From an uncultured Oscillospiraceae bacterium (GTDB taxonomy: Bacteria > Bacillota > Clostridia > Oscillospirales > Oscillospiraceae), in NCBI GenBank assembly GCA_947589545.1, contig CANQBA010000015.1:1-61858 (forward strand): a stretch of DNA of 61,858 nt. The letters are read 5' to 3'. Both the position numbers and the translations under genes were made by a program. Shown here in pieces: positions 23,176-24,290 of the stretch (its first letter is position 1; every line of letters starts with the position of its first letter). Below the pieces are notes generated by a model. It made no database searches and had not been told where the DNA came from. It saw only the letters and a program-made list of their open reading frames with translations.

Positions 23176-23203
23176 TTGACAGAAGGAAAAGAGCGGCTAA
23201 AAT
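23176..23203 (+). promoter_or_regulatory. Promoter overlapping the acyltransferase start codon
   Basis: TTGACA (23176-23181), 16-base spacer, TAAAAT (23198-23203). The -10 overlaps ATG 23202, so a transcript from it would begin inside the ACAG repeat and lack that start codon. Either this is fortuitous or repeat length also affects initiation. Confidence 0.45.
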
Positions 23204-24290
23204 GTTACAGACAGACAGACAGACAGACAGACAGACAGACAGACAGACAGACAGACAGGGAAATTATGACGTTCTGAGGGTGCTTTGTTGCATTGCGGTC
23301 ATCACGCTCCATGTGGAGAGTTTTCCCATCAGCGTCGTGAACAGCAAGCTTCTGGAGGCCGTCATGAACGGGATGTCCAGATTCGCCGTGCCGTGCTTCG
23401 TGATGCTCTCCGGGGCGTTTTTGCTGTCCGACAGCCGTAACGCGGCCTACAGGCCGTTTTACAGGAAAAGCTTTAAAAAACTGCTTATTCCCATTCTGGT
23501 TTTTACCGTTTTTTATTTCCTCTATTCGGAGGGGACTCTGCTTATAACGGCCTTAAGCAAGGGAGAAGGATACGAAAGGCTCCTGGTGCCGGTCAAGAGC
23601 CTGGCAGCCGGTTCGCCGTTTTTTCATATGTGGTATGTTTACACTATCCTGGGGGTTTACATCCTTGTTCCGCCGATCGTGCGGCTGAAGGAGGATATCG
23701 GGGAAAGGGCCTTTTGCGTGGTGTCCTGGATCATGCTGGCGCTGTCCTGCGTCAGCGGGTTGACAAGCACGTCCCTGCTCAACTGGAGCATCGGCAAGGT
23801 GAGCTGCTTTTTGGGATACTTGATGGCGGGCTGCCAGCTGAAACGAATTGTTCCCCAAAAGAGCGCGCTTTCCGGCGTGATCTGTCTCTGCGCCGGTTTC
23901 GCGCTTCTGGTCGTGCAGACAGGGATCATATATGCGGACGTGTATGACGCGGAGGCGTTGACCAGCATGTTCAATCCGTTGATCACCGCGGCGGCTCTTT
24001 TGATTTTTGCCGGCTTTTCACGGATCAGGATACGTGAAAACGCTCTGCTTTTAAGGCTGTCCAAAGCCTCGTTCCTGATCTATCTGAGCCACGCGTTTAT
24101 CATCGATTTTTCGAAAAGGATCGTGGATTTTTTCCATATCCGAATAACGTGGGGCCCCGCGCCGGTGGTGGAGGTCTTTCTTGTGCTGGGGATTGCCTGG
24201 CTTTTTGCCGAGCTCTACCAATGCGTTTGGAATCGGCTCGACCGGGACGGGAGAATATCGGACAGGCTCTGCCGGCGCGTTGGGCTGTAA
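23202..24290 (+). CDS. Acyltransferase-3 family membrane protein, probably phase-variable
   Basis: A 362-residue integral membrane acyltransferase (OafA/WecH-like) with about ten membrane helices; such enzymes O-acetylate or otherwise acylate surface glycans. The family start is seen as NYDVLRVLCCIAVITLHV, with the conserved His in LHV. Between ATG 23202 and this core lie four TDRQ units encoded by (ACAG)13. The other two frames after the repeat stop within seven codons, so gain or loss of a 4-base unit would switch the protein off. AAGAG lies eight bases before the ATG. The repeat copy number here leaves the gene ON. Confidence 0.82.
   Translation: MLQTDRQTDRQTDRQTDRQGNYDVLRVLCCIAVITLHVESFPISVVNSKLLEAVMNGMSRFAVPCFVMLSGAFLLSDSRNAAYRPFYRKSFKKLLIPILVFTVFYFLYSEGTLLITALSKGEGYERLLVPVKSLAAGSPFFHMWYVYTILGVYILVPPIVRLKEDIGERAFCVVSWIMLALSCVSGLTSTSLLNWSIGKVSCFLGYLMAGCQLKRIVPQKSALSGVICLCAGFALLVVQTGIIYADVYDAEALTSMFNPLITAAALLIFAGFSRIRIRENALLLRLSKASFLIYLSHAFIIDFSKRIVDFFHIRITWGPAPVVEVFLVLGIAWLFAELYQCVWNRLDRDGRISDRLCRRVGL
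23207..23258 (+). repeat. (ACAG)13 tetranucleotide microsatellite in coding sequence
   Basis: Thirteen perfect tandem ACAG units (52 bases) start two codons after the ATG of the acyltransferase gene. Repeats of this kind change length by strand slippage and act as on/off switches in known contingency loci. Confidence 0.95.

Follow-up and report, generated by a model that had tools for sequence, protein, structure and literature searches.

An (ACAG)13 array at the start of a clostridial acyltransferase gene: a probable frame switch next to a promoter-like element, and a proposed promoter-coupled class of tetranucleotide arrays

Phase variation by slippage of tetranucleotide repeats is best known from Gram-negative pathogens. 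A perfect ACAG array at the very start of an acyltransferase gene of an uncultured Oscillospiraceae bacterium raises the question of whether a clostridial gene may be switched in this manner, and what the promoter-like element in front of the array contributes. In the window, i.e. the whole stretch of 61,858 nucleotides that was analysed, both TRF (period 4, 13.0 copies, 100% matches) and direct reading yield 13 perfect ACAG units over 52 bases, as the first-pass annotation had claimed, and the four encoded TDRQ units were likewise recovered. Its placement of the array two codons past the start codon has to be amended: the repeat begins two nucleotides past the ATG, its first base being the A of codon 2 (TTA). 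All 8 window matches to a six-unit ACAG stretch fall within (ACAG)13, with 0.00 expected from 100 shuffles, and the array is the sole one of at least five ACAG units in its own genome (3.83 Mb, 148 contigs).

The repeat is free of stop codons in every frame and its unit length is not a multiple of three. In agreement with the earlier claims, the ORF is continuous at the present copy number and both TGA codons that close the other frames are present (Table 1). Among the 9 to 17 units tried, the gene is open at n = 10, 13 and 16 only (n = 1 mod 3), while at the remaining six unit numbers the product ends after 19-27 amino acids. This anatomy sustains the frame-switch part of the proposal that slippage turns the enzyme off, the slippage itself being presumed. 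Moreover, the array is perfect and short and lies in the 5' part of the ORF, features by which a contingency locus is recognized.

Table 1. Coordinates of the acyltransferase locus, its array and adjoining features within the window.
Feature	Position	Strand	Remarks
rpmE (ribosomal protein L31), upstream neighbour	22888..23106	+	PF01197, E 2.8e-34
Intrinsic terminator after rpmE	23110..23144	+	palindromic, 15 pairs; prediction listed on the - strand
Insert with promoter-like element, array and acyltransferase	23150..24333 (approximate borders)		blastn against relatives
-35-like TTGACA	23176..23181	+	31 bases before array
-10-like TAAAAT	23198..23203	+	spacer 16; overlaps ATG; ends 3 bases before array
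Acyltransferase-3 gene	23202..24290	+	ATG at 23202, 362 aa, Acyl_transf_3 (PF01757)
(ACAG)13 array	23207..23258	+	read as (TDRQ)4
TGA stops in the two other frames	23267-23269, 23275-23277	+	sequence and copy-number reading

The assignment of the gene product to the acyltransferases holds, as PF01757 is matched over its full length (E 3.5e-36; 125.3 bits against a cut-off of 31; profile positions 4-324 of 326). The domain spans residues 22-335 (about 23265-24206), and the translation features R-x10-H, a motif typical of the acyltransferase-3 family, at the start of the domain in its first helix. The surface-glycan context proposed for the enzyme was not recovered, given that Pfam revealed no polysaccharide gene among the six neighbouring proteins tested, i.e. 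a helicase of the UvrD type that also carries a PDDEXK domain, the rpmE product, a Gfo/Idh-type oxidoreductase and three proteins without a match; a surface glycan may be the substrate of the acyltransferase. The clostridial host suggested earlier is in keeping with the order relative G222, in which the array and its flanks are as in an uncultured Clostridia bacterium. An upstream in-frame GTG at 23136 is an unlikely start codon because it lies inside the rpmE terminator, the palindrome of which was read from the sequence and the + strand T run of which covers 23139-23144. The ribosome site at the ATG is weak and consists of a purine-rich stretch.

In blastn comparisons with the genus relatives G011, G001 and G018 (L075, L077 and L076, respectively), matches stop at 23143-23154 and restart at 24329-24341, while the gap between rpmE and the next gene amounts to only 0-25 bases in these genomes. 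Since the blocks of these three relatives adjoin without it, promoter-like element, array and gene are taken as one insert of ~1.2 kb, with a G+C content of 0.537 in the gene as compared to 0.677 upstream and 0.646 downstream. A 220-aa gene without Pfam match (24347-25009) immediately follows the insert. Acyltransferase matches occur in 7 of the 34 genus genomes, own included, the six others at 28-30% identity and with an extra 53-residue piece at 44% identity among these matches; no close acyltransferase relative was confirmed in scans of genome contigs and viral contigs.

The promoter-like element, TTGACA-16-TAAAAT, overlooked in the first-pass annotation, matches 11 of 12 consensus positions; downstream of the rpmE promoter (22835), it is the only promoter-like site that the + strand offers before the array. 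Both observations would suit a plain promoter of the acyltransferase gene, with the array as 5' untranslated sequence whose length tunes expression. This explanation is considered unlikely: there is no in-frame ATG between the array and the AT3 domain, and it is opposed by further observations on related arrays given below. By ordinary sigma-70 geometry, transcription is predicted to start at about 23209-23211, within the first repeat unit. Such a start would leave out the gene's own ATG, and therefore expression of the gene is probably not what the element is for; the ATG is perhaps transcribed via read-through of the rpmE terminator, and the element makes the beginning of this gene's mRNA harder to place.

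Similar arrays are found beyond the window. (ACAG)6 is present in 3 of 34 genus genomes and (ACAG)7 in 13 of 394 order genomes, own included in both cases; among viral contigs 108 ACAG stretches were detected and 80 of these fetched, and among genome contigs at least 118, of which again 80 were fetched. The array directly precedes the domain in five other clostridial acyltransferase-3 genes, from Blautia schinkii (L233), Butyrivibrio (L259) and Lachnospiraceae MAGs (L242, L267 and L272); the sequence of each of the latter three opens inside the array, at the end of a contig, and close homology links L242 to L272. Glycosyltransferases directly after the array comprise a GtrII glucosyltransferase (L230) and a GT8 glycosyltransferase (L293). 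DNA methylases are represented by EcoRI-type (L072, L074), C5 (L132) and N4/N6 (L176) enzymes, and further carriers include hsdS (L138), PAPS-reductase-domain phage genes (L137, L163), a reverse transcriptase (L143) and an AMP-ligase (L232). Additional carriers of the hsdS, methylase and PAPS type were identified by eye only; L080, by eye a hexapeptide acetyltransferase, had no Pfam match.

Some of these loci display further peculiarities. In the hsdS-like genes L078, L085, L088, L138, L161, L239, L245, L252 and L282, assigned by eye except for L138 (three domain stretches by Pfam), the array stands between a two-domain specificity subunit and a further domain, and the frame at the array decides whether this extra specificity domain is added; L073 is alike and cut by a contig end. 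In the reverse-transcriptase gene (L143:2167-3204), 24 ACAG units lie in frame inside the RVT_1 match. The EcoRI-type adenine methylase of L072 (G030:C58, 3559-4652) is located on a contig that ends in an ACAG array, while L074 (G030:C13, 1-644) opens with one and encodes, in different frames, two more methylase-like C-termini. If the two contigs adjoin, it looks as though repeat number picked the methylase tail.

Coupling to a promoter-like element was assessed by scoring TTGACA (at least 5/6) at a distance of 30-36 bases upstream of the array, after removal of arrays with similar upstream sequence. The 45 upstream bases required were available, before this deduplication, for 13/16 arrays of order and genus, 75/81 viral, 43/54 Bacillota and 23/26 other arrays; arrays were assigned to phyla from record titles, each genome contributes one array to the order set, and the order and Bacillota sets share at least one locus. 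The hexamer was present in 28/36 arrays from Bacillota, 8/10 from order and genus (the window array among them) and 24/46 from viruses, as opposed to 1/21 from other phyla, and the exact TTGACA in 20/36, 7/10, 20/46 and 0/21, respectively. Control blocks further upstream scored 62/1210 for Bacillota; Fisher p was 4.5e-8. Among deduplicated arrays, the -35 is absent from 22/46 viral and 8/36 Bacillota cases. Given a -35, a -10 (at least 4/6) was found at spacer 17 in 27/58, at spacer 16 in 13/58 and at spacer 18 in 5, compared to 0-6/58 at spacers 8-15. Upstream sequence beyond the two hexamers and the array-adjacent bases carries little information in the deduplicated arrays. With TTGACA at -31, spacer 16 and TAAAAT, the window locus falls into this proposed promoter-coupled class, which is delimited by TTGACA at -30 to -36 and a -10 at spacer 16-18; the single case from outside Bacillota, L289, is an hsdS-like gene of a betaproteobacterial MAG.

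The unit itself may differ. In phage sets searched for exact TTGACA at -20 to -45, hits were obtained for 42/74 ACAG, 8/35 ACGA and 12/47 ACCG arrays, all at -29 to -37, as compared to 0/31 CAAT arrays at -27 to -37; three of the 31 CAAT arrays have TTGACA, all at -26 and with one shared flank. On the (ACCG)n phage contigs L472, L484, L498 and L509, which carry TTGACATG, the -35 hexamer shares bases with a start codon that is preceded by a purine-rich, ribosome-site-like stretch. A class-wide search with a promoter-anchored pattern returned matches in 7/391 genomes, some of them the array matching itself.

The position of these arrays within genes bears on the function of the element. Many arrays of the class reside inside long ORFs at an unchanged element distance, which argues against a plain promoter, and hsdS-like and methylase genes have it deep inside the ORF. 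Because of this and of the window start behind the ATG, a role in expression is unlikely.

A distinct anatomy is found in 27 hand-picked leader loci, in which the array stands before the downstream gene and not inside it. Further analysis drew on a terminator hairpin that, with its T run, follows the array by 57-121 bases; 24 of the 27 were used for it and L170, L275 and L290 dropped; 22 have enough upstream sequence. In 15 of these 22, a start codon at -21 to -27 is followed by a frame that stays open up to the array (3.2 expected from shuffles), and there is a further promoter-like site (at least 10/12) upstream in 11 of the 22 (0.8 expected). Both counts again speak against the plain-promoter explanation, and on account of the same counts the idea that these promoter-array-terminator loci are small RNAs was set aside. 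The frame test gives a weak signal: an exit frame runs open as far as the terminator in 19/24 loci as opposed to 14.6 expected (p 0.034), and 20/24 have a frame that meets a stop within 12 bases as opposed to about 12.6 expected, the latter summed from printed values. A known structured RNA was suspected, and Rfam at its gathering threshold yielded no match in 18 loci of the subclass. Start codon, array, terminator and gene follow each other in L249, L250, L268, L270, L285, L294, L170, L081 and L084, and in several of them the terminator is preceded by a T run and a short anti-repeat of the GTCTGTC kind. The leader loci are candidates for phase-variable attenuators.

The relation of element and array was also examined in a family of PAPS-reductase-like phage genes, of which the best 80 of 453 confirmed homologues were compared, several sharing contigs with the viral array set. 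Within a 70-base segment, TTGACA was found in 13/18 array-bearing and in 0/62 array-less homologues of these best 80 of 453; under a strict -35 plus -10 test the figures are 8/18 and 2/62. In L342 and L344 the exact match stems from the array's own first bases only, and the tetranucleotide array of L339 as well as four dinucleotide arrays are without TTGACA. In L337, L341, L360 and L395, (GA)n or (AT)n without TTGACA occupies about the same place as the tetranucleotides. The array-less homologues lack the whole 70-base segment and therefore a joint gain of element and array is possible. In L335, L336 and L405 the offset and reading frame of TTGACA vary while its distance to the array is kept; the coupling appears to lie at the level of DNA and not of protein.

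These relations give weight to the main rival explanation, according to which arrays are born or inserted at promoters, or spread with a promoter, so that the element would be cause or passenger without a present role. Joint gain and loss in the PAPS-reductase family, the varied alignment positions and frames within that family, and the persistence of the element in part of each set while the unit varies between ACAG, ACGA and ACCG all accord with such an origin. On the other hand, the upstream sequence is little informative outside the hexamers, unlike that of a moved cassette, and the same hsdS-like position recurs in several genera, which suggests long maintenance. Altogether, this origin is rated as rather doubtful, and a role of the element in repeat instability is favoured over it.

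Whether the arrays are switches at all may be judged from frame states and unit numbers. Among 49 gene-internal arrays (at least 100 aa open before and at least 60 aa open after the array; not deduplicated), 41 have the -35 element, 18 of them in frame and 23 out of frame, and of the 8 without it 3 are in frame and 5 out of frame. The unit number is 10 in the phage contig L148 and 12 in the phage contig L187 behind 615/615 identical upstream bases; the two contigs share the first 123 downstream bases and are 96.6% identical over 1.9 kb. L110 and L173, apparently the two ends of one 45-kb contig, overlap at the array with 13 and 10 units, a difference that could be an assembly effect. Two other flank-matched pairs, L162/L176 and L082/L279, have equal unit numbers, the latter probably representing one genome, while the pair L122/L186 is cut by a contig end. 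A stable coding repeat, with (TDRQ)4 as a mere linker, would agree with ACAG being stop-free in all frames and with the in-frame window copy. It is very improbable in view of the 23/41 out-of-frame arrays, the differing unit number behind identical flanks and the several contigs that end inside arrays.

Taken together, we assign a probability of about 0.62 to the window array being a slipped-strand frame switch within the promoter-coupled class, the element serving the array itself. At 13 units the acyltransferase would be read through (ON), one or two units more or fewer would shift it out of frame (OFF), and a clone would comprise a mix of ON and OFF cells differing in acylation of an envelope or glycan acceptor. 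The class would consist of tetranucleotide arrays, mostly ACAG and some ACGA or ACCG, of Bacillota and phages at a sigma-A-type predicted transcription start, where the element would open or transcribe the tract and so raise the slippage rate instead of driving gene expression. We infer the variation of the locus, the acylated acceptor and the role of the element in repeat instability. More tentatively, and with doubts prevailing, a DNA-level module of Bacillota and phages may be envisaged, in which a sigma-A promoter starting on a tetranucleotide array makes the array hypermutable, and which may have been built into unrelated surface-glycan, restriction-specificity and phage DNA-modification genes. 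If the clostridial and phage version is true, populations regarded as clonal would randomly switch their surface enzymes and restriction specificity as well as phage DNA-modification genes; if a promoter at the array raises the mutation rate, a single reporter would suffice to test how targeted hypermutability evolves.

With respect to the literature, a search in which subscription journals were mostly outside the covered sources gave nothing on promoter-coupled ACAG arrays or clostridial ACAG switches. In the accessible parts of the respective articles, C. difficile appears in a 2025 phase-variation review as an example of invertible promoters (PMC11868660), and PMC10710837 yielded no information on how transcription relates to bacterial repeat slippage.

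Among established systems, the leader subclass resembles the pil1 locus of Streptococcus gallolyticus, where, according to the accessible text, a (GCAGA)22 leader-peptide attenuator lets repeat number set the reach of the ribosome, as proven experimentally (PMC3894217). Promoter, start codon, repeat within a short ORF, terminator and gene appear to recur in the leader loci, which by this analogy would not be new in kind, although pil1 has a pentanucleotide and a mechanism proven by experiment, whereas the leader subclass is known from its sequence anatomy. For the window, attenuation of the pil1 type was rejected: its array lies inside the gene, and no terminator separates it from the acyltransferase. 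Repeat tracts also occur in type I hsdS genes, where they change the specificity subunit in phasevarions, SSR-bearing genes making up 7.9% of hsdS in the part of PMC7394358 at hand. The hsdS-like genes described here differ in that the array forms the link between a two-domain HsdS and a further specificity domain, which is read in the same frame or in another, and in that the element is located at the junction.

The closest likeness of the window locus is to Haemophilus influenzae, in which, as far as the accessible portion of PMC2651432 extends, tetranucleotide arrays lie within ORFs of surface genes: lgtC carries GACA repeats, the same unit as ACAG, and oafA, encoding a lipopolysaccharide O-acetylase that is switched, carries GCAA repeats. 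The oafA array is located mid-gene, whereas that of the window stands at the gene start. Moreover, H. influenzae belongs to another phylum, and promoter coupling was observed in 1/21 arrays outside Bacillota in a scan that lay apart from the Haemophilus loci. By its anatomy the window locus fits the contingency-locus kind, with the promoter-coupled position of the array as its variant feature.
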